In this document: positions 44,887-62,704 of the stretch, piece after piece
How the letters are laid out: each line of letters begins with the position of its first letter
Position numbering within the stretch: position 1 is the first letter of the stretch
NCBI GenBank assembly: GCA_017470425.1
Contig: JAFUYT010000006.1
Location: 1-64,000 of the forward strand
DNA length: 64,000 nt
Reading direction: 5' to 3'
Source: Bacteroidaceae bacterium
GTDB taxonomy: Bacteria; Bacteroidota; Bacteroidia; Bacteroidales; Bacteroidaceae
Made by a program: the position numbers and the translations under genes
The notes under the pieces: model-generated
Seen by the model: the letters and a program-made list of their open reading frames with translations, nothing else
Databases searched by the model: none
What the model was told of the DNA's origin: nothing

Positions 44887-44913
44887 TAAAGAATTCGTGA
44901 AAAATTTATGACC

Positions 44914-46126: not shown

Positions 46127-46154
46127 AAGAGACACAATAAATACCTGTGTGTTT

Positions 46155-47228
46155 TTACCAGTCAAAGGTTAACTGCAGATCCTGTTGAGCACCTTCCGGG
46201 AGGATGGCGCCGGTGACGGTCAGGCCCAGCAAGCGCACTGTGCGCCCGCTCATATCGACCTCTTCCAGCAACTGCGCGGCAATCTGCATGATCTCGTCCA
46301 TGTCCTCGATCGCCGTGGTGCCGGTATGGCTGTGCGTCGTCTGCCGGAAATCGCTGTACTTGACCTTGAGCACGAGGGAGCGCCCCTTGAAGTGGTGCTT
46401 CTCCAGCCGTCGGACGAGTTCCGTGGCGAGGGGCGTGAGCTGAGCGACCATCTCCTCATGCGTGGTGAGGTCCTCGGCGAACGTGCGCTCACAGCCCACG
46501 GACTTACGGACCCATTCCGTGACGATGGGCCGAGGGTCAATGCCTCGGGCAAAGTCATAGAACACCCGTCCCATCTTCCCGAACTCGCGCGTCAGCGTGG
46601 CGAGCGACACGGCACGCAGCTGCTTGCCGGTGCGGACGCCTAAGGCGTGCATCCGCTCCGCCGTCTTCTCGCCCACGCCCCAGAAACGTTCCACCTTGAG
46701 GTCGTCGATGAAGGCGAGGGCCCTGTCAGGATGCACGATGCACAGGCCGTTGGGCTTGCGATAGTCGCTGGCGATCTTGGCCAGGAACTTGCAGTAGCTG
46801 ACGCCGGCCGATGCCGTGAGCCCGGTAGTCTCCAGGATGCGCTGCTTGATCTCCTTGGCAATGTCCATCGCCAGGGGGATGGATTTCTTGTTCGTCGTCA
46901 CATCCAGGTACGCTTCGTCCAGGCTGAGCGGTTCGATCAGGTCGGTGTAGTCGCGGAAGATGGCGTGGATCTGCGCCGACACCTCCTTGTAGCGGCTGTA
47001 ATGGCCCTCCACGACGATGAGGCCCGGGCAGAGGCGATGGGCGGTGGCCACAGCCATTGCCGAGTGCACACCATATTTGCGCGCCTCATAATTCGCCGTT
47101 GCCACCACGCCGCGTGGCCCGTCGTGCCCCACGACCACCGGATGTCCCTTGAGCGCAGGGTTGTCCCGTTCTTCGACCGAGACGAAGAACGCGTCCATGT
47201 CAACATGTATAATCTTGCGCGTGGTCAC
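46155..47228 (-). CDS. dinB: DNA polymerase IV
   Basis: 357-residue Y-family translesion polymerase: IHVDMDAFFVSVEERDNP, VVVGHDGPRGVVATANYEAR, the catalytic SLDEAYLDVT, GVSYCKFLAKIASDYRKPNG, and VERFWGVGEKTAERMHALGV (helix-hairpin-helix). GTG start. It lies 15 bp after the RyR gene, in one operon with the putative channel, which is unusual for dinB and could tie mutagenic repair to the island's stress response. No obvious clamp-binding tail beyond QQDLQLTFDW. Confidence 0.93.
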   Translation of the reverse strand: MTTRKIIHVDMDAFFVSVEERDNPALKGHPVVVGHDGPRGVVATANYEARKYGVHSAMAVATAHRLCPGLIVVEGHYSRYKEVSAQIHAIFRDYTDLIEPLSLDEAYLDVTTNKKSIPLAMDIAKEIKQRILETTGLTASAGVSYCKFLAKIASDYRKPNGLCIVHPDRALAFIDDLKVERFWGVGEKTAERMHALGVRTGKQLRAVSLATLTREFGKMGRVFYDFARGIDPRPIVTEWVRKSVGCERTFAEDLTTHEEMVAQLTPLATELVRRLEKHHFKGRSLVLKVKYSDFRQTTHSHTGTTAIEDMDEIMQIAAQLLEEVDMSGRTVRLLGLTVTGAILPEGAQQDLQLTFDW

Positions 47229-47243
47229 GATGTGTTCTGAAGT

Positions 47244-47537
47244 TCATTCCTTCGTAATCCGGAAGCCCAGCTTCAGGATGAGCTTCAGCGTCTCGACCGA
47301 CGTGTTGCGGTCGAAGTCCTTCTCCGCTTCGGGCAGCTCCTCGTAGGCCACGAGGCAGGGGTGATGCCGCTGCGCGTCGTCGCGCTGCGGGCCGTAGCTC
47401 CATCCCTGGCGGATGCGCTCCTGCGCCCATGTCTCGTGTACATTCTTCGCCATCGCCTCCAGCAATGGCGTCAGCTCCTTCGGCAGCTGGATGTCAGAGG
47501 TATCAACGGGATGAGGGGTGTAGTCGGTAGGGGGCAT
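47244..47537 (-). CDS. Stand-alone RyR-domain protein
   Basis: 97 residues consisting of one ryanodine-receptor (RyR) repeat: LEAMAKNVHETWAQERIRQG, WSYGPQRDDAQRHHPCLVAY and ELPEAEKDFDRNTSVETLKL. The VHxxWAxxRxxxGWxYG and HPxLxxYxxLPExEKxxDR patterns are those of RyR repeats. Bacterial RyR domains have been linked by comparative genomics to nucleotide-signal conflict systems, where ligand binding is predicted. It lies 6 bp after the channel gene, whose C-terminus has a second, diverged RyR domain. Confidence 0.85.
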   Translation of the reverse strand: MPPTDYTPHPVDTSDIQLPKELTPLLEAMAKNVHETWAQERIRQGWSYGPQRDDAQRHHPCLVAYEELPEAEKDFDRNTSVETLKLILKLGFRITKE

Positions 47538-47543
47538 AGGTAT

Positions 47544-49538
47544 TTATTTCTTGAGGGCATCTACCAATATCTCAGCCGTTTGCACGACGTTGATATCCTT
47601 AATCGTTTCACTCTCCGGAAGTGCAGTATATGGCTTGATGCACGTGTGGATCTTCAACCGGTCGATGCGCAGCTCATTGGAGCAAGCCTGCCGCCAACCT
47701 GCCAACGTCCGTTCCGCAATCCAACGCCGATGTTCCGCATTGGCCAACTGCTTCAACATGAGGTCTTTTGCCTCTTTGGGGAGAGATTTAATTCGCTTTA
47801 GCATCGCTAACAATGAGCGATAAGAATCCACCTGGTAGCGCGACGACAAGCGATTTGTCTCCGGCGTGACTTTCAAGTTGAGCCACGACTCGCGCCACGA
47901 CTCCAAAAGATTCTTGAAAGGCACTTCCTTGATCTGTTCAATGCCTTTCTGTCCTTGTTCCAGTTGTAAGGAATAATTGCTGTACACCCCGTTGATACAA
48001 ATTGCTAAATCATCATCTAACAACGCTTCGTCAAATCCCTCAGTGAAAGAGCCAAACAACTTCACATTCTGGTAAGGAATCTTATTGGCCGCCAAGACCT
48101 CGCTGTGCAGATTCTTGATGGCCTGGCGCACCAAGATGCGCGGACGCGTCCCATTCTCGATAACATTTTGTTTACCAAACGGAGCTGTCTCTTTATGAGG
48201 TTGAAGCGTCAGCTCATTGTAATGATAATACATCCCTTCCGGCAAGGTGAGAGCCATGCCCATTGCAGCATCGGGATCAGAGACACAGATGGCTACTGTC
48301 AACAGCTGCCGACAGTCTGCGCTCCACTCTTCCAACTGCTGACGCACCTCTGCCGCTTCGATGGTTGCACTCACAAAATCAATCTTGACATCCGTGATTT
48401 GTGAGAGATGGGCATAATGAGCCTTCCACTGAGTCTCAAGTTCCATAGCGCGGGGGTCAATGACAGTGATTAGCGTCTGGTTGGAACCCGTCAGCTCATC
48501 GTAGTTCGGGTAATGGCAGATTCTGAGGGCTTCAAGCAGCAGGGCACGTCCCATGCTGTTGAAGCCTGCAATCACCAGATGCACATACTTGTCTGTAGCC
48601 TCCAATGGTTCAAAGTCCAATGCGTCATAGACGTAGGATGCATCCTTATCATCCTTCTTCCCATGATAGCTCCACAGCAGACGTGCCCAGTTATCGTGGA
48701 AATTGAAGATGTGCAGGTCAATATTCTGCTGATATTCTGGCTCTATGTTCTTATCATTCCCCTTTCTCGGCAACTCCATACTATATAAGCGCTCTGGCAG
48801 CTCCAGCCGTTGCACCAGATCATAGGCGATGCTGTCGTTAATCAGCACGTTCACCTTCAGCAGGTTATTACCTTTTATAGAACGGTTGCCTGCCGCTCGT
48901 GCCACTTCCTGCAGCATTGACATGCTCTGGGTATATTGGTTCTCCCATTCATTACCTTCTACCATGACAAACACTTCCTGGGCATGAGGCAGCCGTAATG
49001 ACTTCATGTGCTTGGAAATATCCGATTCGCCGGCGTATATCACCACGCGCTCTTCCATGTCTTTCGGTAAACTCACTTGCAGCTGTGCCCGTATCATCCG
49101 CGCATCCTTGGACGTTAGGATGACCAGCTTGGAATCCGTAGCTTGAGTGAGCGCATGTTCGATGACACTGACCGACAGCATATTGTAGCCTATCATCACC
49201 ATGTGGTCAGACAATCTATAACGCATACGACCACCGCGAATATTTTCCACATACCGCTCTATACCATTTGCAAAGGCGGTAATCAGCAAGCCATTGAAGA
49301 AGAAAAGGCCAATCAAGGCGATTCCCAAAAAGACAATCTTCTGGGAGACTGGAGTCCCCGCCTCGGTCGGGTTCACGCCGAAATAGTAGTACATGTGATC
49401 CAGTAGCTCACTCGTGTCGCACTTTAGGACTCCGAGCACAAACACTACTGCCAACGAGAAGACGAGCAAAAGGACGAAATAGGTTCTTGCATGCGTCAAT
49501 TTACGATTGAAGAAGAGGAAGAAAGAACTCATAATCAC
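47544..49538 (-). CDS. CASTOR/POLLUX-like channel protein with C-terminal RyR domain
   Basis: 664 residues. Two membrane helices (about 18-38 and 67-91) enclose a segment that could form a pore loop (FGVNPTEAGTPVSQK). Next comes GGRMRYRLSDHMVMIGYNML and IRAQLQVSLPKDMEERVVIY, an RCK/CASTOR-like Rossmann domain, and a second at about 310-400 (YVHLVIAGFNSMGRALLLEA, VIDPRAM). The C-terminal 60 residues are a RyR domain (NAEHRRWIAERTLAGWRQAC … CIKPYTALPESETIKDINV). It is probably a gated ion channel in the inner membrane. Selectivity and ligand are unknown. Its start overlaps the small membrane gene by 4 bp. Confidence 0.78.
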   Translation of the reverse strand: MIMSSFFLFFNRKLTHARTYFVLLLVFSLAVVFVLGVLKCDTSELLDHMYYYFGVNPTEAGTPVSQKIVFLGIALIGLFFFNGLLITAFANGIERYVENIRGGRMRYRLSDHMVMIGYNMLSVSVIEHALTQATDSKLVILTSKDARMIRAQLQVSLPKDMEERVVIYAGESDISKHMKSLRLPHAQEVFVMVEGNEWENQYTQSMSMLQEVARAAGNRSIKGNNLLKVNVLINDSIAYDLVQRLELPERLYSMELPRKGNDKNIEPEYQQNIDLHIFNFHDNWARLLWSYHGKKDDKDASYVYDALDFEPLEATDKYVHLVIAGFNSMGRALLLEALRICHYPNYDELTGSNQTLITVIDPRAMELETQWKAHYAHLSQITDVKIDFVSATIEAAEVRQQLEEWSADCRQLLTVAICVSDPDAAMGMALTLPEGMYYHYNELTLQPHKETAPFGKQNVIENGTRPRILVRQAIKNLHSEVLAANKIPYQNVKLFGSFTEGFDEALLDDDLAICINGVYSNYSLQLEQGQKGIEQIKEVPFKNLLESWRESWLNLKVTPETNRLSSRYQVDSYRSLLAMLKRIKSLPKEAKDLMLKQLANAEHRRWIAERTLAGWRQACSNELRIDRLKIHTCIKPYTALPESETIKDINVVQTAEILVDALKK

Positions 49539-49741
49539 TTGCTTTTAATGGAATCCCGCCCAAATAGGCTCTCGATGCGCTGGAGGGTGTAGTGCATGAA
49601 GAAGATGATGACGAAGGTGAGCAGCAGCGCCGTCACGGGCTCCGGCTTCAGCTCATCCTTCCGATAGATAAAGTACAGCAGTGCCGCCACGGGCACCTGC
49701 GTCAGGCATAACGCCACATAAAATCCTATGTTCGCTTCCAT
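49535..49741 (-). CDS. Small two-helix membrane protein
   Basis: 68 residues from the ATG at 49741: MEANIGFYVALCLTQVPVAA then LLYFIYRKDELKPEPVTALL and LTFVIIFFMHYTLQRIESLF. Two membrane helices joined by a short charged loop. It opens the operon and overlaps the channel gene by 4 bp, so it may be a subunit or regulator of that channel. No family recognised. A longer TTG start would overlap the promoter and was not used. Confidence 0.72.
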   Translation of the reverse strand: MEANIGFYVALCLTQVPVAALLYFIYRKDELKPEPVTALLLTFVIIFFMHYTLQRIESLFGRDSIKSK

Positions 49742-49758
49742 GAGTCTTAAATTCCGCC

Positions 49759-49803
49759 CCAAAGGTACACATTATTTCTGAACCTCCACCATGCTCCGCC
49801 CCA
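49759..49803 (-). promoter_or_regulatory. Shared promoter module, copy B
   Basis: Leftward TACCTTTGG -7 element within a 45-bp block identical to 53826-53870 and matching 62722-62747 over its first 26 bp. It drives the small-membrane/channel/RyR/dinB operon. Confidence 0.8.
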
Positions 49804-49970
49804 CTTTTCGCAATTTTGCCCGTTCTTTTTCCTCATCCCGATTCACATCACCGCGATATTGCTGAATTAATTGTGCTTCGAGCGTACGTAAGTTGCGCAG
49901 GGCATAACGCGAAGAGAGCCGAAGGAAAAGAAAAAAATGAACGCTGGCGAAGAAAATATAGTTGTTATTA

Positions 49971-50002
49971 TTTGTCTATTCAAAGGGATTATGTACTTTT
50001 GC
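49971..50002 (+). promoter_or_regulatory. Promoter for the VapBC-like pair
   Basis: TTTG (49971-49974), 19 bp, TACTTTTGC (49994-50002), 27 bp before the antitoxin ATG. Confidence 0.7.
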
Positions 50003-50029
50003 AGCAGAATTGCAAAAGAAAGATAGATT

Positions 50030-50317
50030 ATGACAGCACTAGCAAAACGCATTTCAGAGACTCCGATGGCACCCTATATGATCCTATTGCAAACTATGAG
50101 CCGTCGCCATAAGGAGATTGTGGTTACATTCCTTACAGAATCTATGAATGAAGGTGCTGACATGGAGCATGAGTTGTCTGAGGAAGAGAAAGACCGGGAA
50201 TTCAGAAGCCTCTGTGGATGTTGGAAGGACGATCCCAAGGATGCAGCTCGAATGGAGGCTGCGATCAAGGAAGGTCGCAAGAATGAATATATGCTCGATG
50301 TTAATTTGGATGACTGA
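50030..50317 (+). CDS. Antitoxin of a VapBC-type pair
   Basis: 95 residues, MTALAKRISETPMAPYMILL, RHKEIVVTFLTESMNEG and an acidic C-terminus (WKDDPKDAARMEAAIKEGRK … MLDVNLDD). The layout, N-terminal DNA-binding-like part then a toxin-wrapping tail, and the TGATG overlap with a PIN toxin gene support antitoxin identity. The family is not a classical VapB. Inferred mainly from context. Confidence 0.7.
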   Translation: MTALAKRISETPMAPYMILLQTMSRRHKEIVVTFLTESMNEGADMEHELSEEEKDREFRSLCGCWKDDPKDAARMEAAIKEGRKNEYMLDVNLDD

Positions 50318-50763
50318 TGGAACAGTATATTCTAGATACGTGCACATGGATTGAATATTTCAAAGATCGTAATGGCGTTCCCGCTCATGTCGAAGCTGTT
50401 GGTAGGAAGAATCTGAGTGCTTCTGAGGTTACATTGGCTGAATTGACAGTTGGAGCCATCAATAGTAATGATTACGAAAGGCATATTAAAGAACCTCAAA
50501 GTTTGAAACGCAATATAACGATTTATGACATAAGCGACGTGTTTGAGGAATACGGTCTTATTCGTTGTGCCCTGAAGGAAATTAAGAAAGGTCTGGACAA
50601 AGAGGTCGGACAATTTGATATGCTCATTGGCGCCACTGCCCTTCACTATAACCTGACCGTCGTCACGGACAATATCAAGCATTTTAGCATGATGCCTGGC
50701 GTAAAATATGAAAACTGGGTGGAACGTTCCTCCTCTCCCTACTCCACCCTGAACCGGATGTAG
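50317..50763 (+). CDS. vapC: PIN-domain toxin, VapC-like
   Basis: 148 residues. PIN-domain ribonuclease motifs: MEQYILDTCTWIEYF (first Asp), EVTLAELTVGA (Glu), QFDMLIGATALHYN (Asp) and VVTDNIKHFSMMPGVKYENW (closing Asp-Asn). VapC toxins cleave specific RNAs, often tRNA, when released from the antitoxin. All four acidic positions are present, so it should be active. Its last 25 bp overlap the convergent TIR-PP2C gene, so the pair could interfere with that transcript's end. Confidence 0.88.
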   Translation: MEQYILDTCTWIEYFKDRNGVPAHVEAVGRKNLSASEVTLAELTVGAINSNDYERHIKEPQSLKRNITIYDISDVFEEYGLIRCALKEIKKGLDKEVGQFDMLIGATALHYNLTVVTDNIKHFSMMPGVKYENWVERSSSPYSTLNRM

Positions 50764-52820
50764 CTGCGGTCGTCGAAGTGGGTAGCGCTGTCCATAAGGC
50801 CCTTCGTGGATTTGTAGATCTTGTAGCATAGCGGGTCTAAACGGATGAGTTCGTTCAGGCGTGCTTCGCTTTCGGCCAGCGTGCCGAAGAGCTCAGGATA
50901 GCCGTCGGACGCCAGCACGACCTCAGAGCCTGGGGGCACATCGGTCACAACGACATTCTTCACAGAGCCCTGGCTAGAGAAGACGCTGTAGCCGTATTCG
51001 TCATCGCGGTTCTCCAGATGCTGTTGCAGCTTCAGCTCATCAAGAATCATCTGCCGGGCCAGATCCACCTTCATGAGTTCCTCCTCCGTATGGCCGCCCT
51101 GCAATAGCATGTGGATCGCCAGACTCCGGGCTTCGGACAGGATGGTATCGACCTTTTTGTAGAACGTGTAGTGCTTTTTGCCCAGCAGAAACTGGCAGTC
51201 GCCAACAGCCCATATCTGCCTCTTGGAGATGCTGTAGATGACCGCCGAGGCACAGAGATGAATGCCCTGCTGCTCGAGCTGATGCCGATGGGCATACGCC
51301 TGCAGTTCTGCCTGAATCCGGCACGTGGCCGTCTTGTAGTCCATGTTGGAGTCTATTACCCCCGTCTGCAGGAAAGAGGCGATGAGCTCCGCCGCAATCT
51401 TTCCTCCGGTCTTACCTTCAAAGCGCGTGCCCGTCTTGCTGGTGGCGCCGTCGATGACCGCAATGTAGTTGTCGCAGACAACAATCACATCCTCACAATC
51501 CTCTGGCACGCCAGTCTTCGAGGCACAGAACTGCTCGGTGATGCCAAAGGTGGGTGAATACGCTTCGTCGGATTCATACGAAGGTGACTCAACCTGTGGA
51601 ATGTGCCGTGCATGACCCTCTGCGTCTGAGCTCTGTACCCGCACGGCTACCAGCGTTTCACACAGTTTCTGTCTGAACATCTCTACAGACATCTGATACT
51701 TCAACAGCCACTGGAAACCCTGTAGTTGCAACTCAGCACCGGGCGACAGCTCCACCTCTTCCAAGAATACCGGAAGTATTTTCTTCTTGTGGTTTAATGC
51801 CATCGTAATCTCATTACGGACATTCCTTGACAGGACTGCGTTGTTCGACAACATCACCATCACCATTTCGCTGTTCAGGATCTTCTCGCCGAGTTCCTCT
51901 GTCCAGTCGCTGCCCGTCTCCAGTTCCTTGTCGTACCAATAGTTGAGTCCGGCCTTCGACATCTCTTGCAAAATACCGTAAACCGACAGGGCATCGCTAT
52001 GGGAATAACTGATGAAGACGTATGGCCGGAGACTCTGATAACTGCTGGGGGCTTCTTTCTCCTTCCCCTTCGATGCCGCCGGTTGTAGATTTCCCAATCT
52101 ACGATCCACGAACCATTGCTGCTTGCGCATGGCAATCAGGATGCGATAGTATTGGTAGTTCCCAATCAGCAAGGCATAGTCTGCCTTCCGAGAATCTTCC
52201 ATGTCTATCGCTTTCAGGATCAGCTCCGAAGACTCCTCATAGTGATGCTTGATGGACACGATGCGCGCCTTCGTGCAGTAATATTTAGCGTAGTCTGGTT
52301 CGAGGCTGATGGCCTTGTTCACACAATAGAGAGCCGAGTCGTACCAGGTATCGACGATGGTCTGCAAATCCTCCGGCAGACACTTCTCACAGATGGTGGC
52401 AAAGGCATTAGCGAAGGTATGATGATAGCCGGAATTCTGGAACAGATCACAGGCACTCTGATGGGCGGTATTGAGCAACAGATCGTAGTCGTACAGGGAC
52501 TCGCTATGTGTCTCGTACATAATCTTGATATGCGAGAACGACGCATGGCGGCTGAGGTCATCCCGTTTCTCTGCCTCGGAGATTAGGGTCCACAGCTTGC
52601 TGAAGTCCCGGTCGTGGCGATGGATGGTCGCCAGGCTGAAGAAAGCCTCATACGCATATTCCTGCCCCTCCCCCATCAGTTCGGTGAACGCCTGAATGCC
52701 TTCATCCGACGAATGGCTGTATGCGAAGCGCGAGATGTCCTTCTCGTAGCTACGTGCCGTCTCGTCCCTGTTCAGCTTGCTGCTGAAGAACTCCAATATC
52801 TCATCTTTTACGGTCTTCAT
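50739..52820 (-). CDS. TPR-TIR-PP2C fusion protein
   Basis: 693 residues in three parts. About 1-250: TPR-like helices (AYEAFFSLATIHRHDRDFSK, YCVNKAISLEPDYAKYYCTK). About 265-395: a TIR domain, YVFISYSHSDALSVYGILQE, WYDKELETGSDWTEEL and VLSRNVRNEITMAL, the last Glu at the NADase catalytic position. About 435-693: a PP2C-type phosphatase fold with AVIDGATSKTGTRFEGKTGG, WAVGDCQFLL, VVLASDGYPELFG and a final DDRSYIRFRV, metal-binding Asp residues kept. TIR domains of this kind hydrolyse NAD or make signals; PP2C removes Ser/Thr phosphates. I know of no described system with this fusion. Cytoplasmic. It is 34 bp after an unknown gene. Confidence 0.8.
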   Translation of the reverse strand: MKTVKDEILEFFSSKLNRDETARSYEKDISRFAYSHSSDEGIQAFTELMGEGQEYAYEAFFSLATIHRHDRDFSKLWTLISEAEKRDDLSRHASFSHIKIMYETHSESLYDYDLLLNTAHQSACDLFQNSGYHHTFANAFATICEKCLPEDLQTIVDTWYDSALYCVNKAISLEPDYAKYYCTKARIVSIKHHYEESSELILKAIDMEDSRKADYALLIGNYQYYRILIAMRKQQWFVDRRLGNLQPAASKGKEKEAPSSYQSLRPYVFISYSHSDALSVYGILQEMSKAGLNYWYDKELETGSDWTEELGEKILNSEMVMVMLSNNAVLSRNVRNEITMALNHKKKILPVFLEEVELSPGAELQLQGFQWLLKYQMSVEMFRQKLCETLVAVRVQSSDAEGHARHIPQVESPSYESDEAYSPTFGITEQFCASKTGVPEDCEDVIVVCDNYIAVIDGATSKTGTRFEGKTGGKIAAELIASFLQTGVIDSNMDYKTATCRIQAELQAYAHRHQLEQQGIHLCASAVIYSISKRQIWAVGDCQFLLGKKHYTFYKKVDTILSEARSLAIHMLLQGGHTEEELMKVDLARQMILDELKLQQHLENRDDEYGYSVFSSQGSVKNVVVTDVPPGSEVVLASDGYPELFGTLAESEARLNELIRLDPLCYKIYKSTKGLMDSATHFDDRSYIRFRVE

Positions 52821-52854
52821 AGACTAATTCATTAAAATTTAACCTTGTATTTCC

Positions 52855-53808
52855 CTACACCATCCTGTTCCTTACGCCCCGGCACCGCTCCATCCGTTCG
52901 CCGTTGACAGCGTAGCAGTAGGCGCTGTGGTCCATGAGGTTGCGGGTCCAGTGGGAGAAGGAGCGGAGGGCGGCGGTCATTTGTTCGATGGACTTCAGGG
53001 GCGGTGTGGAATGGCCATTGAGGCTATCGACGGTGAAGAGGACCTGCGGGGTGATGGTCTGCTGCGAGGTGGCGATGTTGCCATTGAAGGCAGCAAGGCG
53101 GTGCTCGGCTTTCACGATATAGTAGTTGGAGACGATGCGGCGGTTGTGCAGCTTCGTATAGACGGGACAGTCCTCGCTGATGCCCAGGACTTCCATCATG
53201 ATGGGATAGTCGCGGTGCAGGGACTGCTTGACGCGCTCCAGACGTGCCACGATGTCGTTGAAGGTGTAGGTGGTATGGATCTTCTCCACGTCGAAGACGA
53301 TGGTGACGTGGTACTCACCCAGGAAACGCTGCGGCAGGAGCACATCCAGGATGGCGTGAACGTTCGCGATGCCGTTGCCCTTGCCGGCGCTCACGTTGGT
53401 GAACAGATAGCGGTCTGAGAGCAGCAGGGCGTTGGAGGGTACACCGCGCAGGCTCTGTAGTGCGGTGGCCCACCCTTGTCCCAACGGCTCTCCGTCGTTG
53501 GTCGTGTGCTCATCGTTGGTGTCTATGAGCGTGGCGATGCTGGGGTGCTCGCCGCCGACACAACAGACGCCGTAGGACTTCTGCAGGCGTTCAGCCTCGA
53601 GGATGGGGACATCCAGGACGTAGAGCGACGAGGGATGCTGCAGCAACTGTTCTTCGGGCTGTACCTGGTTTCCTTTCAGAACCACGAGGTCGTTCGGATA
53701 AGCGCATACCAGCTTGTAGAGGAATGAGCGTTTGTCCTTAGGCTTCTGCTTTTCCTCAGCGTCGATTCTTAGAAGAGTCTTGTCGGCGATGAATATCTTT
53801 CGTGTCAT
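52855..53808 (-). CDS. Unrecognised protein upstream of the TIR-PP2C gene
   Basis: 317 residues from the ATG at 53808 (MTRKIFIADKTLLRIDAEEK). No family recognised with confidence. Visible features are a first alpha/beta-like part (LVVLKGNQVQPEEQLLQHPS, SLYVLDVPI), LLLSDRYLFTNVSAGKGNGI, VTIVFDVEKI, and LHNRRIVSNYYIVKAEHRLA, which recalls a phospholipase-D-like strand with HxR. No signal or membrane segment. It shares its promoter and first codons' surroundings with the TIR-WG gene (46 bp, one mismatch). It is cotranscribed with the TIR-PP2C fusion and so is likely its partner or regulator. Confidence 0.75.
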   Translation of the reverse strand: MTRKIFIADKTLLRIDAEEKQKPKDKRSFLYKLVCAYPNDLVVLKGNQVQPEEQLLQHPSSLYVLDVPILEAERLQKSYGVCCVGGEHPSIATLIDTNDEHTTNDGEPLGQGWATALQSLRGVPSNALLLSDRYLFTNVSAGKGNGIANVHAILDVLLPQRFLGEYHVTIVFDVEKIHTTYTFNDIVARLERVKQSLHRDYPIMMEVLGISEDCPVYTKLHNRRIVSNYYIVKAEHRLAAFNGNIATSQQTITPQVLFTVDSLNGHSTPPLKSIEQMTAALRSFSHWTRNLMDHSAYCYAVNGERMERCRGVRNRMV

Positions 53809-53870
53809 AGTTTCCGAATCTGCCGCCAAAGGTACACATTATTTCTGAACCTCCACCATGCTCCGCCCCA
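53806..53870 (-). promoter_or_regulatory. Shared promoter module, copy C
   Basis: Leftward TACCTTTGG with flanking sequence: identical over 45 bp to copy B, and over about 46 bp including the start-codon region to copy D with one mismatch. Confidence 0.85.
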
Positions 53871-53903
53871 TTTTTTCATCCTCCACCCTGCACTTTCCTG
53901 TTT

Positions 53904-54884: not shown

Positions 54885-54994
54885 CAAATATTGATACCCG
54901 TATCTTCTTTTCTCCTCTTTCTTTATTTCTTGATGCGATTTTGCCATGAAAGCTTCATTTATCTACTATAGTTGTTCAGTCTATTACTGAAATC

Positions 54995-57900
54995 TCATAT
55001 TTCAATCACCTTGCGGAGTTTTCCTGCGTCAATCACATAATAGTAATCATTATTCTTTGGAAATAGCCCCATATTAACGTATTTAAGATGGTATTCTGCA
55101 CCAGTACAATAGGAAAGTTCCTTGGTGATTTGCCCCATGCAGGTGGATGCAAACTCCTCTGTAGAATCCTTATATGCCCGTAATATGGCCAGCACTAATG
55201 CTTCCGATGGTTTCCAACGAGCCTTGTACCATAACTGAGCAAGCTGGGATAGTTCTTGGACGGTGTAGCTCCCATTGCATACGGCCTCGGTGAATGCTGC
55301 CTGCATTTTCAACATATTGGGGGGCGTTAGCCATTTATCTCCATTTCCGATATCATGGGAGCCACCAGCTGATCGCACTCGTAGCGCCAGAAGATAGCGA
55401 TGAGGTATGACTTCATGAAGTAGCTTTTCACCTATTTCAATATATCGCGCATCCTCCAATGGCAATGAACCAATCATATTGTAGCGTATACGTACATTCT
55501 CGTAATGTGCAAATCGTGCCTTGCTGATGGCTGTATTGATGCGTAAGAGATAGGACAAGCACGTATCCGCCTGCGCAACATCCTCAAAGGCCCATCGTGC
55601 ATACCGTTCAAGGATGGCCAGCACGATACCCGTATGCGGCTGCCATGCAATACCCTTCTTCACATGAATACGAAGCCACTGCTGCGGCAGGTGATTGAGC
55701 GTCTCAAAATCTACAGTTCCCTGTTGGATAAAGGACGCACTAAGTCTCTCGGCTGTGGCCAGGTACTTCGCTTCACGGTAAAGAACCTCATAGTCTTTCC
55801 CCGCGGCAAGCGCCGCCATGCGCATCAGCCGCAGTTGATACACGACGAAGGCAGCCGCCTCCTTTGGCATTTTATACGTGTATGTGTTTTCCGACGGCAG
55901 GGTTCCAATGAGGGTATAACGGATAAAGAGGTATTCGGAACCGTTGTGGTAAGCATTGTCAAAGCACTGTTCTATAGCACTGATGCGTTCCTGCGCTGCT
56001 GCCCGGTTCTCGTCCTCCTCCGTCATCGCTACCGTACCTAAGCGTAGCATCATTGCCGCCACAAATTCATCAGTCGTGTGCCATTTGGCTCTCACCCATA
56101 ACAGGGGGAACCTGATGACATCCCTGAACGGTACCTCCTCCGACCTCAGCCTTCGGGCATAATCGCGTTCTTGTTTACGGAGAATCGCCATGGCGGCTTC
56201 GTTGATAGCGCCATCAAGTTCCTTGTGTCTATATATTGTCATCAAGCTGCATGGATATGCATCTTCGAGATGCTTGGTATAGAGCCTGATCTTGTCGGAC
56301 AAGGAGCAATGGTACTGTCCTTTCAACTCCTCCCGAATATGTGCGGAGTCCATCGGCCGCCTACACCAAGCAGCATATTTCCCCGGTGCCTTTTCGATGA
56401 GCAGATCGCCATTTCTCAGGAGACTGATGTCGGAATATACGAGCAACTGTGCCAGCGTCTTGCAAACGGCTTTGTATACATCCCCCGTAAGCGTCCTCGA
56501 TTCCACCTTGTCCTTCAAGAACTTGGCCAATACAGGCACGATTTTGTCAATCTCCCGACAGTCCACCTTGTACAATTGTTGTGTGAAATGGTTGTATGCC
56601 TTAATATCAGGCAGCATGGAGACGAGATATGACAAGAGGCTGCTCGACAAGAATGGCCTGCTGGCCTCACGAAGGCAATAGAACAACCGGGGAATATACT
56701 CGCGCGCAATCATTTTCTTGATCCTCCAAATATCGTTTCCTGAGATTGGCAGATGTCTATCCTTATCTTTCGATTGCACATCCTTCAGTAGTTCATTCAT
56801 GAGGGATTCCGCGCAGTCGTAGTACTTTTCGGCGATGCACGCTACGATTCGCTCCGTGCCGTAGAGCACTCCATCGGGAAGTGTAGCGTTGTAGTAGATC
56901 ATCGTTCGCCATACGTGATGCGACACGTTTGACGGCTCCTCATACAAGCCCAGCATCAGGTACTCACGCTCATCCTTCACCAGCATGTCAGAATCTCCTC
57001 CATCAACCAGATACCGCAACAGGTCGCTTAATATCGGCTCCGTATGTTCTATGTCATTCCCCCTAAGATACCTAACCATGCGAAACACATAGACATCAGC
57101 CCCCGTACTGCTGTATGGACACCCCTTGTTGTACAAAAGATTGGTCCGTTCAACAAGTTCCCTGATGCTTCGCACCTGTGATGACATGTGGGCGAGGATT
57201 TGCGGTTGTAGCGTTAGTCGTGGATATTTCTGCTTTTGAATGTCAAATTCGTTCAATAGAGCTCTCATCTCGTCCCAGCTGGAAGTAGCCTTGGCCATTA
57301 TGGAGAACGTCGCTGATGATGGTGCCCTGCCAACATTCTTAATGGAATGTTGATAGTAACTCATCACTACATCAAACAGTCCTGGCGTCGCTCTGACTTT
57401 TCGCTGGGCATCAATGAAGTTGTTTAGGATGGAGTTGTAAGCAGACAGTGCAGAGTTGGGATTACTCCAGTCTAATGCGGTCAGCGCCTCGTTGATGTCC
57501 TGTTCATGCTTCCAATAGTGCCAAGCGATATTCTTGTTGAATAGATGAATGGGTAACGGAGCCTGCAAGGCAGGAATCTTTTCGGCATACTGCTCATAGT
57601 ACCCTCTGCATCCTTCTCGTATTATCTTTATGTCTTTGGGCGTTAGCGTATAATATTCCTGCTGATTAACCAATACTCTCATCAATCGGCGATACGTATT
57701 GGCCGTCCGCTCATTTTTTTGTCCTATCAAATTCGCTATAGCGTAAGAGTCCACCGGATAATGCCATTTGCACATGGCTTCCACATAGCCCGCTGCACTC
57801 ACTTGACAGATGTCCACCTTCCCCTGCGCGTCACAGAACACCATTTTCAGCGCCTCTTTATGATCCTTGTATATTTTTAGCCGATTGCAGACGATGATAT

Positions 57901-60900
57901 TGTTCGTCCTTACCTCGACATCTGCCTGAGACAAAAGTCCATTCAGCTGGTCTATTGCCCAAAGACGCTCAGGTTTGCCTTGCATGTCTGCAATGCGATT
58001 GACGAGGTGGTTAAACGTGTAGGTATCGGCGTTGAAGAGCCCCCGTTCCTGACATCTAAGAATCATATCCATAGCCTCTTCAAAGGTCTGGAGATATGTA
58101 ATGTTCTTAATGATGTTATTGTATATATAGCCATCTCTCAATAACTGAGGCTGTTCCGATTCCAGATAAGACAGGCAAGCCGACAACACCTCCCTGTCCT
58201 TGTCATCTTGACAGGATTTTTCAAACAAGTGTCCCCATCCGATATTAACTCGCGACAGCTCCTCACGCATCTGATCTACAATGGTATTGGGGTCGAATGT
58301 AGAATTGTCATGCCCCTGCTCCCACTCAAATGTCAAAGGCTCATATCCATCAGGCAAAGCAACCCCTGACAGGTTCAAGAAATTAAGTGCTGTCGGCAGG
58401 TCAACCTCCGGGCGCGCCATTAGTTCCCCCACAACAAAGACATTGGGCTTAACTCCCTGAAGATACATTCTATTCAACCAGTCGTAGCACTCATATAGGT
58501 TTGCCGCCAAGGCGATGAGCCTGCTATAAGTAAACGAATCACGCTGTTTATGCAGTTGGTCATAGAGGACATTGATCATATCTGCATATATCCGCTTTTT
58601 CTCCCCCCGACTCTTGTCTATCATCTTATTAAGCGTATAGGTGTTGATGTACAGCGGATTATGCCGGGCATCACGAGCATGGGGTATTAAATCATTCTCC
58701 ATTAAGTTCTCTGCCTGCTGGATGCCACAAAAGACATTGTCCAACATTGCCGTATAGGTGAAACTGTTACGCAGAATCAGCCAAGTGTCTTTCTGCCTGG
58801 GATGACGTATCTTCAAGGGGGCAAAGATTGTGTTGTACACCTCGTCATACGAAGTGTTGGCAAAAGAGCGAATCAAATAACTGGTGGTGCTGCTGACCAC
58901 CATGCGCATAGCTGTCTCATCCGTAAACCGGCCATCGAGAGTCGCTCCTATGCATCCTAACAATTCAGCTATAAATTCCTGGCAAGCATCCAAATCCGAA
59001 CCATAGACGCGGTTCAAGAGCTGTGCCTGGACATAGGGAGTAAGAACCGACAGCAAATCAATCAGCGTCGGTTGTTGGACATGGAAACTTATTCGTCGGC
59101 TACGTATGTCTTCTAGAATACCGATATCGCTCAATAGATAAAGAAAATTGGTTCTTAAGACATTACAGAAATGCGTGAATTGTTCTATGTCGCTGACTTT
59201 AAGCGCCAATGCTCCAACGGCTTTTCGGAGCTGATAGATGTCATAGGGTTTTTCTGTATCAAGTAGAAGTCTGGCAATCTCCACCGCATCTTCACTCAGG
59301 GAGAAACGGGAAAAAGCCTGTAAAGCGCCGTCATAGTCGGGAGCCCACTCTACTTCGACGCTGATGACGTATGCCTCATTCTTCATCTTTTTGTAATCTT
59401 CCATTGCCCTTATTTCATCACGCTCCTGCGTCGTCTGAGCCTTACGCATCAGCGCACTGAGCAAATGGTCTGTCCTCAAAGTTTTCGGGCACGCAGCATA
59501 AGCCGCCAAAGCTTCCGAGTAACCCTGGCAACCATAATAGATGAAGGTCTCTATTACATTTGAATAGAAATGGATATTGGCCAGGGCTCCGTTTTCACAC
59601 TTCTGACGGTCATCGCACAAGAGTCTGGACAAATTCTTGTCTGCTGTTCCTTCAACAGATTCTCCCATCCACAAGTGGTATAGCCATCGAGTCGTCTGGC
59701 TCCTGTAGGTACATCTTCTGCAGATTCTGGAGACTTGAACAGTCAACGCTTCGTCTTTGACGTTGTGATTACAGAAAGACAACAAGACACGTGCCAATGC
59801 TTTTTCATCTTCCTCTGAGAATGATTCGTCACCATTTAAGAGGTACCCGTCACGCCCTATGAAATAGCGGTAAATGTATTCCTGAATGATTACGGGTGCG
59901 TCGTTTCCACGAGAAGAGATGCCCATACGTCCATCCGTAACCAAACTGTTTAAGGCGCGGCGACAAGCTTCCTCTATCTCATCTTGTTCCCATTCACATT
60001 CTAAGTCCTTCTGGCAGAACCATGTCGCCAACTTTAACAGCTGCTGTCTGTCCCCTATGCTGTCATCTCTCCACATAGAAATTGCCTTAATGGCTTTCAG
60101 CAACATCCGTTTGGCAAGCTTCATAAGGTCGTTACCCTGTTTCTGCCATCTTTGGTAGTCGCCGAGGATACTGTTTAAATCAACGAACAACGCTCCAGTA
60201 CGACGATAGCGCATATTCCGCTCATCCAAAGGCACGCCCGCAGACAGAAAAAAACGTTTTGCTTCTGAGAACTCTCGGCCTTCCATTTCCTTGATTTCTA
60301 ACCAGGCGGCATGAGGGTTCTCGCGAGGATTGACACCCGGGAAATTGATCTCTCGCACCGATGACGTAGCAACCACGGAAATATTCGTGTTGTCTATTTT
60401 GCTAAGGAAAGATCTCAGAGCGTCACTAATTTCTTCTATCTCAACCAATTGCTCTAAGTTGTCAAGGACGACATATAATTTGGGGACATCTGGGGTTGCA
60501 GCATAAGCCAACAAGCGGTCTGTCTGTGATACGAAATAACGTGTCCAGGTTTCCATGTCTGCAAACCTGTCTCGGAATACATATATCCATCCGTCATTGA
60601 CATTTTTCAACGCCTCCATGACGGCACGTGTTTTACCAGACAATGAAGGCCCTGAGACCACGATGACACGACGGCTCCGCAGCGCTTCATCCAAATCGTC
60701 GTCGAATTTACGTCGCAGATACAATTCCGTACATTTTTCCCTGCGGCGCACATCGGTGAAAAAGAGCTCCTTAGTCAGCTTATTTCCGCGGACAGCATCC
60801 GGGAATGGGCGTTCTTTGCTCATTGCAAACGCCATCAGTTCGTCTGCTGCCTTATTCTTTAGCTGGGACATATCGCTGAAGGGGATAGAGTACACGCGCC

Positions 60901-61363
60901 GGTGCCCGACAACCTGATTGCGGTTGTCAGCCATGTAAGTCTCCAGATTCTCATACTTCATGAAATCATCGTAGCTCATCCCCACCTCGTTGCTTTCCTT
61001 AGCTGTCTGTTCATTATAGAAAATGATGAGATATTGCGGCAACTCACCACGTTGATAATTGGCCAATGCCGCTTCAAACTCGTAGCGCGTCAGACTGCGA
61101 ATCTGCTCGTCGATAATCAGAAAGAAAAGGGTTGACTGGCATAATGCACGGTCGGCAGGAGCTTGGGCATCAATCTTTTCCACCTTTTGGGTAAAGTCTG
61201 GACGGCGTTCATAGAAGAACTCACTAAAGCACACATTATCCAGTGCCAACTTCTCATTTACCTCCTCAATCGCTGCTTGAACGGCAGAGCGATGCTCCGT
61301 CAGATGAAGCGACGAGGCAATAAATACTTGATACTCATTTTGTCCCTTTGGCATAATTAACAT
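54995..61363 (-). CDS. Giant STAND-like NTPase with TIR/DUF4062-like N-terminus and long helical repeat region
   Basis: 2,122 residues (or from the ATG at 61354). About 10-160: EYQVFIASSLHLTEHRSAVQ, STLFFLIIDEQIRSLTRYEF then EAALANYQRG, a TIR-like or DUF4062-like fold. About 235-420: an NTPase with VVSGPSLSGKTRAVMEAL (Walker A), LYVVLDNLEQL (Walker B) and ISVVATSSVREI. The remaining about 1,650 residues are helical repeats, some resembling pentatricopeptide-like units (TYTFNHLVNRIADMQGKPER, NSILNNFIDAQRKVRATPGL). This is the plan of STAND immune receptors: effector, switch, sensor. It lies 3 bp after the TIR-WG gene, so the two are coupled. Confidence 0.75.
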   Translation of the reverse strand: MLIMPKGQNEYQVFIASSLHLTEHRSAVQAAIEEVNEKLALDNVCFSEFFYERRPDFTQKVEKIDAQAPADRALCQSTLFFLIIDEQIRSLTRYEFEAALANYQRGELPQYLIIFYNEQTAKESNEVGMSYDDFMKYENLETYMADNRNQVVGHRRVYSIPFSDMSQLKNKAADELMAFAMSKERPFPDAVRGNKLTKELFFTDVRRREKCTELYLRRKFDDDLDEALRSRRVIVVSGPSLSGKTRAVMEALKNVNDGWIYVFRDRFADMETWTRYFVSQTDRLLAYAATPDVPKLYVVLDNLEQLVEIEEISDALRSFLSKIDNTNISVVATSSVREINFPGVNPRENPHAAWLEIKEMEGREFSEAKRFFLSAGVPLDERNMRYRRTGALFVDLNSILGDYQRWQKQGNDLMKLAKRMLLKAIKAISMWRDDSIGDRQQLLKLATWFCQKDLECEWEQDEIEEACRRALNSLVTDGRMGISSRGNDAPVIIQEYIYRYFIGRDGYLLNGDESFSEEDEKALARVLLSFCNHNVKDEALTVQVSRICRRCTYRSQTTRWLYHLWMGESVEGTADKNLSRLLCDDRQKCENGALANIHFYSNVIETFIYYGCQGYSEALAAYAACPKTLRTDHLLSALMRKAQTTQERDEIRAMEDYKKMKNEAYVISVEVEWAPDYDGALQAFSRFSLSEDAVEIARLLLDTEKPYDIYQLRKAVGALALKVSDIEQFTHFCNVLRTNFLYLLSDIGILEDIRSRRISFHVQQPTLIDLLSVLTPYVQAQLLNRVYGSDLDACQEFIAELLGCIGATLDGRFTDETAMRMVVSSTTSYLIRSFANTSYDEVYNTIFAPLKIRHPRQKDTWLILRNSFTYTAMLDNVFCGIQQAENLMENDLIPHARDARHNPLYINTYTLNKMIDKSRGEKKRIYADMINVLYDQLHKQRDSFTYSRLIALAANLYECYDWLNRMYLQGVKPNVFVVGELMARPEVDLPTALNFLNLSGVALPDGYEPLTFEWEQGHDNSTFDPNTIVDQMREELSRVNIGWGHLFEKSCQDDKDREVLSACLSYLESEQPQLLRDGYIYNNIIKNITYLQTFEEAMDMILRCQERGLFNADTYTFNHLVNRIADMQGKPERLWAIDQLNGLLSQADVEVRTNNIIVCNRLKIYKDHKEALKMVFCDAQGKVDICQVSAAGYVEAMCKWHYPVDSYAIANLIGQKNERTANTYRRLMRVLVNQQEYYTLTPKDIKIIREGCRGYYEQYAEKIPALQAPLPIHLFNKNIAWHYWKHEQDINEALTALDWSNPNSALSAYNSILNNFIDAQRKVRATPGLFDVVMSYYQHSIKNVGRAPSSATFSIMAKATSSWDEMRALLNEFDIQKQKYPRLTLQPQILAHMSSQVRSIRELVERTNLLYNKGCPYSSTGADVYVFRMVRYLRGNDIEHTEPILSDLLRYLVDGGDSDMLVKDEREYLMLGLYEEPSNVSHHVWRTMIYYNATLPDGVLYGTERIVACIAEKYYDCAESLMNELLKDVQSKDKDRHLPISGNDIWRIKKMIAREYIPRLFYCLREASRPFLSSSLLSYLVSMLPDIKAYNHFTQQLYKVDCREIDKIVPVLAKFLKDKVESRTLTGDVYKAVCKTLAQLLVYSDISLLRNGDLLIEKAPGKYAAWCRRPMDSAHIREELKGQYHCSLSDKIRLYTKHLEDAYPCSLMTIYRHKELDGAINEAAMAILRKQERDYARRLRSEEVPFRDVIRFPLLWVRAKWHTTDEFVAAMMLRLGTVAMTEEDENRAAAQERISAIEQCFDNAYHNGSEYLFIRYTLIGTLPSENTYTYKMPKEAAAFVVYQLRLMRMAALAAGKDYEVLYREAKYLATAERLSASFIQQGTVDFETLNHLPQQWLRIHVKKGIAWQPHTGIVLAILERYARWAFEDVAQADTCLSYLLRINTAISKARFAHYENVRIRYNMIGSLPLEDARYIEIGEKLLHEVIPHRYLLALRVRSAGGSHDIGNGDKWLTPPNMLKMQAAFTEAVCNGSYTVQELSQLAQLWYKARWKPSEALVLAILRAYKDSTEEFASTCMGQITKELSYCTGAEYHLKYVNMGLFPKNNDYYYVIDAGKLRKVIEI

Positions 61364-61366
61364 TGA

Positions 61367-62704
61367 TTAAATTATTCCTACCCTTTTCCCTTTCCTGTCT
61401 ATAGTGTACCATTCCCCATCGCGACCCTTCACTTTTGCGAAGCCACCGATGAATTCGTTGGCATATGCCCATTGTGCCGGAAGAATGGTGCGGCCGGATG
61501 TGTTGATATAGCGATATGTGCCGGATAAATCCTTCGCAGCAAACCAACCTTCGGAGAAGACACCGCCGCTCTTCCACTGGCAGGGAATCACCACGCGCCC
61601 CGTTGGGTCGATGAAGCCCCACTGCTCACTGGCGTCCTTGACAGCGGCCAGATGTTCACTGAATTGACAGGCATCCTTCCATCGGCAGGGTATTACCTCG
61701 CGTCCGCTCTTGTCGATAAAGCCGTATCTGTCATTCGCATCGCACACAGATGCCAAGCCTTCGCGGAAAGACGACGCTGATTTCCATGCCCCTGTAATGA
61801 AGATGCTACCCGTATGGTCGATAAATACTGGTTTCCAATCGGCCGTCCGGACAAAGGCAAGTCCTTCCGAAAAAGAAGAGGCAAACTGCCACTTGAATGG
61901 GATGACGGTGTTCCCTGTCTTATCGATATAGCCATGCGACCATTGCGATTCTGCTACATGCGCGACGCCTTCAAAGAAGGAATCGGCGATATGCCACTGG
62001 CACGGAATAACGATGCGCCCCGCTTTGTCGATGAAGCCCCACTTCCCGTTGGCTCCACGCACGCGGGCCAAGCCTTCATAGAATGAGTCAACAACCTCCC
62101 ATTGACAGGAAATGACCAGCTCGCCCTTCTTATCGATGAAGCCCCACAAGTCTGCGGAGCTCTTGACCGCTGCCAAGCCTTCTTGGAAAGCATAGGCGTA
62201 CTTCCATTGACAGGGAATGACTACGCGTCCGTTCTCATCGGCAAAGCCATAGTTGCCATGAACCAGCACAGGAGTCAGCGCAGGTTCTGCACTGCCCGTC
62301 CACCGCCCCAGATCCCTCAGCAGCTTCTCCCGCTGCGGGGCGTTGTCCCAGGCGATGGTGTCGGTGAGACCATACATGAAGTCGAACTCATCGGACATGG
62401 TGCAGTTGTCGATGTTGATGATGACGACGTGCTTCTGGGCATCGTGCTCGGCTTTCTTCATGGCAAAGTTGAGCTCCCGGAGGGCGAACTTGGAGCTCTG
62501 GGAGTCGCGCGAGAGCATGAACAGGAAGATGCGGCAGGTGTTGATGGCGTCCACGATGTCCTGAGTGAACTGCGACGCACCGCTCTCGATGCCCTCCAGG
62601 TCCATCCAGCACTCGGCGCCGGTGGCCTGCTCTATCTTGCCTTTGATGCCCTTGACCTTCTCAAGGTCCTTGCGGCTGTAACTGATGAATATTTCTCGTG
62701 CCAT
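61367..62704 (-). CDS. TIR-domain protein with WG repeats
   Basis: 445 residues from the ATG at 62704. About 1-135: TIR domain, REIFISYSRKDLEKVKGIKG, CWMDLEGIESGASQF, IFLFMLSRDSQSSKFALREL (catalytic-position Glu). About 150-445: eight full WG-type repeats plus a partial one, each like YGFIDKSGREVIPCRW … FSEGLAAVK. WG repeats form beta-solenoid or propeller-like binding surfaces. It is the first gene of the TIR-STAND operon, with a shared promoter. It may make the signal or be the effector while the WG array senses a ligand. Function unproven. Confidence 0.82.
   Translation of the reverse strand: MAREIFISYSRKDLEKVKGIKGKIEQATGAECWMDLEGIESGASQFTQDIVDAINTCRIFLFMLSRDSQSSKFALRELNFAMKKAEHDAQKHVVIINIDNCTMSDEFDFMYGLTDTIAWDNAPQREKLLRDLGRWTGSAEPALTPVLVHGNYGFADENGRVVIPCQWKYAYAFQEGLAAVKSSADLWGFIDKKGELVISCQWEVVDSFYEGLARVRGANGKWGFIDKAGRIVIPCQWHIADSFFEGVAHVAESQWSHGYIDKTGNTVIPFKWQFASSFSEGLAFVRTADWKPVFIDHTGSIFITGAWKSASSFREGLASVCDANDRYGFIDKSGREVIPCRWKDACQFSEHLAAVKDASEQWGFIDPTGRVVIPCQWKSGGVFSEGWFAAKDLSGTYRYINTSGRTILPAQWAYANEFIGGFAKVKGRDGEWYTIDRKGKRVGII

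Follow-up and report, generated by a model that had tools for sequence, protein, structure and literature searches.

A Bacteroidaceae genomic island in which TIR proteins and a predicted RyR-gated channel share a promoter-like sequence and probably form one alarm system

The window, by which is meant the whole stretch of DNA that was analysed, comprises positions 1 to 64,000 of contig JAFUYT010000006.1 from a Bacteroidaceae bacterium (GCA_017470425.1). Within it, an island at 46,155 to 62,704 carries three operons, here called the channel, TIR-PP2C, and TIR-WG operons, all on the minus strand, and sequence comparison finds an identical promoter-like sequence before each of them. A VapBC-type pair on the plus strand (50030..50763; antitoxin 50030-50317, toxin 50317-50763) separates two of the operons. 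The toxin has a PIN match (PF01850, 46.5 bits), which agrees with the VapBC pair claimed in an earlier, sequence-only reading of this DNA, while the antitoxin has no Pfam match, hence 'VapBC-type'.

In the channel operon, the two-helix protein (49535..49741) most probably starts from the ATG at 49741, the open frame from a TTG reaching 49762. It is similar to the N-terminal helices of PrsW proteases, with a weak match to NCBIfam PrsW (E 0.0018). The sequence-only reading had taken this protein for the channel, which is ruled out by its likeness to PrsW N-termini; the channel is instead the 664 aa RyR protein, a role which that reading did not give it. The idea that the two-helix protein supplies the N-terminal half found in four-helix channels, and missing here, was dropped because it matched PrsW-like genes and no channels. 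Related loci repeatedly carry PrsW-like genes, which are present in 10 of 79 RyR loci, with M48-like genes in eight.

The stand-alone RyR protein of this operon, RyR97 (47244..47537, 97 aa), matches PF02026 at 125 bits and is near PDB entries 3nrt and 6uag, which are annotated as 'putative ryanodine receptor'. Its residues H34, W37, H59, and D76 have the same spacing as the ligand residues H75, W78, H100, and D117 of RyDEP, phage RyR-domain proteins that bind two signals of TIR enzymes, 2' and 3' cyclic ADP-ribose, or cleave them (PMC13232231, a 2026 preprint). Among 70 stand-alone RyR proteins (loci L079-L157) the H, W, H, and D are kept in 70, 70, 62, and 70, respectively. RyR97 is a candidate signal sponge or hydrolase, or a candidate soluble co-sensor. 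By spacing, the last gene of the operon is that for DNA polymerase IV (DinB; 46155..47228; PF00817 176.7 bits, PF11799 101.5 bits), 15 bp downstream of RyR97 and probably a passenger.

The predicted RyR-gated channel (47544..49538, 664 aa) is identified from Pfam, a structure model, and the alignment of homologues. Its RyR domain (PF02026, residues 586-652) scores 30.0 bits, 2.6 above the cut-off of 27.4, so that both RyR domains claimed from the sequence are found by Pfam; the genome, 72% complete, has no further PF02026 match. The model has a helix at residues 18-39, a pore helix at 42-52, and a helix at 64-101, then two Rossmann-type RCK domains from about residue 112 to 445. This predicted arrangement, in which the pore module precedes a tandem of Rossmann-type RCK domains, is that of an RCK-gated two-TM channel, and the 664 aa protein is accordingly predicted to be one. 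E602, H603, R605, W606, H631, and D648 of the RyR domain are invariant in 30 homologues. The H, W, H, and D ligand residues of RyDEP are present in both RyR proteins of the window, and are kept in 53, 52, 53, and 52 of 53 long RyR proteins (L079-L157). The RyR pocket is among the most conserved parts of the channel, the remainder of the sequence being divergent.

No TVGYG-type selectivity filter is present in the first 330 residues of any of 63 channels. The pore loop reads D-P-G in at least 29 of these, with at least three further D-P-G readable by eye, and D-[SGTQ]-N in 11; in the window channel it is VNP, lacking the filter Asp of the CASTOR type (a D-x-G-N-like motif). Since a change of the filter Asp to Asn abolishes conduction in CASTOR, according to the available part of that study (PMC6697748), the VNP filter may mean, by analogy, that the window channel has altered conduction or none. 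There is no channel match in plasmids at E 1e-5.

Bacterial TIR domains make or consume NAD-derived nucleotides in immunity. Two TIR domains had been claimed for the island, and Pfam bears out both, in the TIR-PP2C protein (50739..52820, 693 aa; TIR_2 70.8 bits) and in the 452 aa frame of the TIR-WG protein (61367..62704; TIR_2 58.9 bits), against a cut-off of 28. The former has an N-terminal part, a TIR domain at residues 268-372 with a conserved Glu337, and a PP2C-like C-terminus; its PP2C assignment is weaker than was claimed, as PP2C_2 reaches 22.4 bits against a cut-off of 24. The TIR-WG protein has a TIR domain with the conserved Glu and then WG repeats (251 bits), and its frame is open to 62725, the ATG at 62704 being consistent with the start of its homologue. 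The glutamate survey covered 62 TIR domains, with hits of 70 residues or less left out. ThsB_TIR matches the TIR-PP2C protein (26.7 bits, cut-off 21.2), with no such Pfam match in the TIR-WG protein; the padloc ThsB models match both weakly, and a PDB sequence search with the two proteins returned no TIR chain. The first gene of the TIR-PP2C operon (52855..53808, open frame to 53829), 34 bp upstream of that for TIR-PP2C, encodes a protein of unknown fold with no Pfam or NCBIfam match and, in padloc, a single weak hit to REase_II (E 0.0034).

The TIR-WG operon also encodes a STAND-like P-loop protein of 2,122 aa with a long repeat region (54995..61363). A Walker A motif, GPSLSGKT, is visible, while the assignment of NTPase domain and repeats is weaker than stated in the sequence-only reading, AAA_16 (21.2 bits) and PPR both being below threshold. 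As regards the TIR/DUF4062-like domain of that reading, DUF4062 is not called by Pfam at E <= 1 and the single-sequence structure model of the N-terminus is of low confidence (pLDDT 37.7); this region is possibly TIR/DUF4062-like. The first 420 residues of the protein have a relative in one other genome of the 295 of the order that were searched. By spacing (47 bp), a transglutaminase-like gene (53904..54947; PF01841 69.9 bits) is the last in this operon.

The promoter-like sequence, which was not part of the sequence-only reading, is 26 bp long and lies on the minus strand at 49759..49784, 53826..53851, and 62722..62747, 5' of the channel, TIR-PP2C, and TIR-WG operons, respectively. There are exactly three exact copies in the genome (72% complete), one per operon. 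They include a TAnnTTTG box, which we take to be the Bacteroidetes -7 consensus. A stricter two-box promoter pattern misses all three, their -33 region being non-consensus, and matches a separate promoter-like site of the VapBC-type pair (49971..50001, plus strand). Exact matches to the 23-base core occur in no retrieved locus of other genomes. As judged from sequence, a promoter private to the island would connect the channel operon with both TIR operons.

The sequence-only reading had set the co-occurrence of RyR channel and TIR genes beyond close relatives as its test, and this co-occurrence is found. Loci L047-L078 served to build the profiles for TIR, RyR, and the channel, which makes counts in those loci circular, and the 79 loci L079-L157 are independent of them except for L131, on the contig of L051. 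These are not 79 genomes, because one genome contributed both L112 and L141 and another both L120 and L145 (L190 is on the contig of L120); G028/G237 and G307/G328 are same-genus pairs. Operon-like order of TIR and RyR-channel genes is seen in 30 of the 79 RyR loci, a denominator that retains five loci with no called RyR frame. TIR and channel genes abut in distant lineages and the linkage spans the phylum. The tree built in the analysis was made by a quick method and includes several long branches. By type, a TIR-WG homologue, 44% identical, is 66 bp upstream of the RyR channel gene in L079, while the whole TIR-PP2C protein was seen beside RyR in no other locus, the matches being limited to its TIR region. 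The partner domains of TIR vary across loci and include WG, FGE-sulfatase, SIR2, Sel1, WD40, TPR, and Fib_succ. Four loci selected for TIR near RyR (L191-L194) are examples and not a rate; only the fused form of RyR was found beside TIR in them, and in L192 the TIR frame is interrupted by a stop. L193 and L194 have two-gene operons, and L123 comes from an isolate, Phocaeicola barnesiae DSM 18169. G383, with RyR below the cut-off and TIR 6.4 kb away, and G390, with the two on different contigs, were left out of the locus set.

In 43 of the 79 RyR loci no TIR was found in the flank, nor in 23 of the 44 loci longer than 18 kb. TIR_2 is missing from the whole genome in 5 of 25 RyR genomes, and in g236, a genus of another family, lists read by eye place TIR on the RyR contig in none of 17 RyR genomes. 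There is no TIR in any of the five channel loci from a protein search (L073-L077), nor in five of the eight channel loci of the window's own family. The channel gene is patchy in this family, being present in 9 of 251 genomes at E <= 1e-20.

That TIR and RyR genes are side by side in many related bacteria suggests, from sequence, a suicide-type antiviral alarm. The island is probably a single co-regulated TIR-to-channel alarm system, with the logic of Thoeris and a new effector. Counted against this are the loci without TIR, including L073-L077 and those of the family, the five genomes without TIR_2, g236, the stop in L192, the VNP filter, the narrow margin of the channel RyR domain over its cut-off, the VapBC-type pair between operons, the lack of a padloc ThsA match, and the absence of the whole TIR-PP2C protein beside RyR elsewhere.

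RCK domains frequently bind nucleotides. This, together with the genomes that lack TIR_2 and the PrsW-like and M48-like genes, is in keeping with a housekeeping or stress circuit rather than immunity, in which RyR would monitor ADP-ribose or NAD status to adjust both ion flux and an ECF sigma factor, with TIR tuning the metabolite. In RyR loci, 19 of 22 ECF-sigma-like genes are directly followed by an anti-sigma-like gene and the anti-sigma-like protein is fused to RyR in 19 of the 79 loci, labels that come from one example with sigma and C39 matches just under the cut-offs. Such a circuit is unlikely, given the patchy channel distribution within the family and the varied TIR partners, which resemble changing sensors.

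It is also unlikely that the genes are crowded in a defence island, as separate accessory modules that share common hot spots and act in separate pathways. The VapBC-type pair and other accessory genes in the window, the patchiness of the channel, and the many RyR loci without TIR would all be expected from this, but not the abutting genes in distant lineages, the operon-like order, or a promoter that recurs identically three times and is otherwise absent from the sequenced part of the genome. N6_Mtase, often part of restriction systems and the sole control family, was within 15 kb in 0 of 100 places, as read from the match list with six places checked by script. It is very unlikely that both RyR proteins are a brake that sequesters or cleaves the TIR product while another cue sets the channel via RCK, for although phages use RyR proteins as a sponge or a glycosidase (PMC13232231) and RyR97 retains the RyDEP residues and spacing, a RyR domain that follows the gating ring in the same polypeptide, with a pocket conserved amid divergent sequence, better fits a gating sensor, and L191-L194 have only that fused form beside TIR.

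The preferred alarm system resembles Thoeris in that a TIR protein adjoins an effector with a domain able to bind ADP-ribose-type signals, and in its variable TIR partners and patchy spread. It differs in that the effector senses through RyR (PF02026) instead of SLOG or Macro, and in its output, a predicted RCK channel; Pfam and padloc find no ThsA, SLOG, or Macro in the scanned island proteins. RyR domains in bacterial conflict systems were predicted earlier. The available part of a 2020 paper on such systems has no mention of RyR or ryanodine. Among the matches listed for literature on RyR, TIR, Thoeris, and RCK, mostly non-subscription, no paper describes bacterial RyR channels with TIR, and a bacterial RyR receiver of TIR signals is unnamed in the literature covered. 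Yirmiya 2025, a preprint on further TIR systems by the citations to it in PMC13232231 and PMC13174449, may already list a RyR-effector type.

RyDEP and the island's RyR proteins belong to one Pfam family and have four ligand residues in common; RyDEP is viral and anti-defence, whereas the island genes are bacterial, near TIR, and in one case fused to a channel. The predicted two-TM pore with tandem RCK domains is shared with CASTOR, DMI1, GsuK, and Slo, from which the island channel differs by its C-terminal RyR, its VNP filter, and an expected NAD-derived nucleotide ligand; CASTOR, in the available part of its description, also has no TVGYG-type filter. In animal ryanodine receptors, for which cADPR is a proposed regulator (PMC13232231), a RyR repeat domain is likewise on a cation channel, but the pore is unrelated, the size differs, and it is in bacteria that a putative signal enzyme is often the genomic neighbour. 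The STAND-like N-terminus may have kinship to a TIR-like NADase, as in the DUF4062 NADase of Swarozyc (PMC13174449, a 2026 preprint), although DUF4062 is undetected in the island and long STAND-like and repeat parts are unmentioned for the Swarozyc bacterial system in the available text.

In the proposed alarm, the sensor enzymes would be TIR-PP2C and, together with the STAND-like protein, TIR-WG; triggered probably by phage infection, their TIR domains would convert NAD+ to a signal of the ADP-ribose type, for which a cyclic ADP-ribose isomer is the likeliest candidate. The channel would be a tetramer of two-TM subunits with tandem RCK domains and one C-terminal RyR each. Binding of the signal to RyR would move the RCK gating ring and open the pore, ions would cross the inner membrane, and growth would stop before phage maturation. 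RyR97 would set the threshold or end the signal, as sponge or hydrolase, like the phage RyR proteins.

More tentatively, and rather doubtfully, there may be a wider RyR-based ADP-ribose second-messenger network in the Bacteroidota, in which the signal is written by TIR proteins and erased by stand-alone RyR proteins, CASTOR-type RyR-RCK channels respond by opening a pore for cations other than potassium, and ECF sigma factors are switched by RyR-fused anti-sigma-like proteins together with PrsW or M48 proteases. If so, the cADPR-RyR calcium release of animals would be mirrored in bacterial immunity, and the RyDEP-type proteins of phages would have been acquired from the bacterial network. The island provides a candidate bacterial RyR receiver, a predicted channel with a conserved pocket that is beside TIR in many lineages and has a promoter in common with two TIR operons. 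The old question of whether the RyR domains of channels respond directly to cyclic ADP-ribose may thus be approachable with two-gene bacterial operons.

The island at 46155-62747 belongs to a fragmented genome assembly of 36 contigs, with a total of 2.4 Mb and a completeness of 72%, and, by gene spacing, has three minus-strand operons, two of them separated by a plus-strand VapBC-type pair. In minus-strand order, the first contains TIR-WG, a 2,122-aa P-loop protein and a transglutaminase-like protein, the second a 317-aa protein without assignment and TIR-PP2C, and the third a two-helix protein, the 664-aa RyR protein (the predicted channel), the stand-alone 97-aa RyR protein (RyR97), and DNA polymerase IV. 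The sequence-only reading of this content was largely right, with domain scores agreeing for the two TIR domains, the two RyR domains (that of the channel weakly), the WG repeats of TIR-WG, and the PIN toxin of the VapBC-type pair. The P-loop NTPase match in the 2,122-aa protein is present, with a score under the cut-off, as is the score for the PP2C domain, and the DUF4062 resemblance claimed for a third TIR-like domain was not detected in the domain search. The DNA polymerase IV gene begins 15 bp after RyR97 (47228-47244) and may share a transcript with the channel. A 186-nt direct repeat, 95% identical (44761-44946 and 45949-46134), lies at the island's left edge and could represent an insertion boundary.

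The same 26 bp, including a TAnnTTTG box, recur without a mismatch directly before each operon (49759-49784, 53826-53851, and 62722-62747). There is no further copy at up to three mismatches in the whole assembly, itself 72% complete, and the reversed control has none. The sequence is part of an 88-nt family; identity to the reference copy is 73% for one member and 84% for another. The common control that this sequence predicts for the channel operon and the two TIR operons is the strongest link between them inside the window. It is possible that the leader has been copied without functional reason.

Across a sample of 295 Bacteroidales genomes, RyR (PF02026) is present in 25 and TIR_2 in 108. 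TIR_2 is found in 20 of the 25 RyR genomes, being absent from the other 5, versus 88 of the 270 others (Fisher P 4.7e-6). Within the RyR genomes, 13 of 35 TIR_2 places are <5 kb from an RyR domain, in 12 genomes including that of the window, where uniform placement expects 0.12; for the control family N6_Mtase, 0 of 100 places are within 15 kb of RyR. In a second set of 79 loci (L079-L157), chosen as encoding a relative of the stand-alone RyR, TIR is present in 36 and missing from the flank in 43; 48 encode a long RyR protein, and in 30 a TIR gene stands in operon-like order with an RyR or channel gene. The stand-alone RyR was called in 67, as expected of the query. The channel is present in 9 of 251 Bacteroidaceae genomes, with TIR at 11 bp, 2.7 kb, and 3.9 kb in three of the eight other channel loci and not found in five; nor was TIR found at channel loci L073-L077. 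In the phylum sample RyR is present in 24 of 345 genomes, 17 of them from one genus of another family (g236), in which TIR is on the RyR contig in none of the 17. Besides the window's genome there are six more (G296, G307, G328, G383, G390, G510), four with TIR 65 bp to 4.5 kb from RyR. In G383 the RyR match is under the cut-off and TIR is 6.4 kb away, while the RyR contig of G390 has no TIR. In the loci of the four linked genomes (L191-L194) the TIR and channel genes abut, the TIR frame of L192 being interrupted by a stop and shortened.

In a quick tree of 51 channels the TIR-near label needs 16 changes, no fewer than shuffled labels, so the TIR link is scattered over the channel family and is not one inherited block. 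The closest of the 79 relatives to the window's stand-alone RyR (77%) is encoded in L079, a locus of an uncultured Prevotellaceae. There, a homologue of the window's TIR-WG (44% identity) lies 66 bp before an RyR channel, followed by more TIR, PrsW, and RyR genes. The co-occurrence expected beyond close relatives is seen for TIR near the RyR channel, this TIR-WG homologue included, and not for the whole TIR-PP2C, which was not seen beside RyR in other loci; the proposed path from TIR to RyR channel is partly borne out, in architecture.

The domains fused to TIR in linked loci (WG, FGE-sulfatase-like, SIR2, Sel1, WD40, TPR, and Fib_succ-type) differ between loci and the channel is constant, as would be expected of variable sensors that share one effector. 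A glutamate, presumably the catalytic one, is conserved in 61 of 62 TIR domains, including the window's two. WG-repeat-like proteins without a TIR call also recur near RyR genes (L087, L094, L102, L103, L108, L122).

An alignment of 30 channels, in which the other 29 are 20–26% identical to the window's, has 14 invariant columns, among them E602, H603, R605, W606, H631, and D648. The invariant H, W, H, and D correspond by position to H75, W78, H100, and D117 of the phage protein RyDEP, a glycosidase, which contact the product of 3'cADPR in a crystal structure (PMC13232231), and in RyR97 the four residues are spaced exactly as in RyDEP, the second His 25 and the Asp 42 residues after the first His. 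In the same preprint, six of eight RyDEP relatives tested bound 2'/3'cADPR and none of these cleaved it, so the pocket residues count in favour of binding but are no predictor of cleavage. The RyR score of the window's channel is weak.

None of 63 channels has a TVGYG-type filter; at least 29 have D-P-G and 11 have D-[SGTQ]-N, reminiscent of AD(S/A)GN, the filter of CASTOR, a Ca2+ channel in which an Asp-to-Asn change abolished current (PMC6697748). The window's channel has VNP at this position, and this copy may therefore be altered.

From the observed domains, channel model, conserved pocket, linkage, and promoter we infer the product, gating, ion, trigger, and benefit of a mechanism in which infection would trigger TIR-WG and TIR-PP2C, these would convert NAD+ to an ADP-ribose-type signal, and the channel would open once the RyR domain behind its gating ring had bound it. 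The stand-alone RyR beside the channel may be a sponge, hydrolase, or co-sensor.

Thoeris likewise pairs TIR with an ADPR-sensing effector, but the island differs in sensor and output, and has no ThsA match. The RyDEP work characterises RyR with cADPR isomers biochemically, but on phage proteins; the only bacterial items named in its available text are an RyR-like structure from B. thetaiotaomicron and a clade that is mostly bacterial and viral (PMC13232231). Among the papers listed by the literature search, none was on bacterial RyR channels with TIR; the TIR-system preprint of Yirmiya et al. could already list an RyR type, which is the largest risk to novelty.

In viral contigs L160, L161, L164, L166, and L168 RyR genes lie just before genes of ~205, ~290, and ~400 aa; by eye, the latter two in L160 are VWA-like and adenylosuccinate-synthetase-like, whereas RyDEP is described beside an NAD-synthesis pair, which these are not. 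A 9-kb contig filed as viral encodes a TIR protein together with two RyR genes, one of them for a stand-alone RyR (L165:5357-7754 and beyond). RyR97 relatives (E 1e-5) are in 123 phage records, 59 of them named Salmonella phages, with query coverage of at least 80% in only 2.

Among the 79 loci, an ECF-sigma-like gene is directly followed by an anti-sigma-like gene in 19 of 22 cases and the anti-sigma-like protein is fused to RyR in 19 loci, labels that rest on one example, L092 (sigma 41.8 bits, cut-off 42.9; C39-like part 23.5, cut-off 24; RyR 111.6), with "anti-sigma-like" read from position and sequence. An ECF-sigma-like gene, then an anti-sigma-like protein carrying both a C39-like part and RyR, is the order at L092:6223-7900, L098, L106, L150, and others. 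PrsW-like genes are present in 10 of the 79 loci and M48-like genes in 8. An M48-like protease with proteins of ~84 and ~170 aa adjoins RyR channels at L123:4758-6441 (the one with Pfam assignments), L094, L106, and L141. The sigma and RyR-fused anti-sigma-like pairs are possibly a transcription branch of the RyR signal, and the gene order suggests that RyR may serve as a general receiver whose output is a channel in one branch and transcription in the other.
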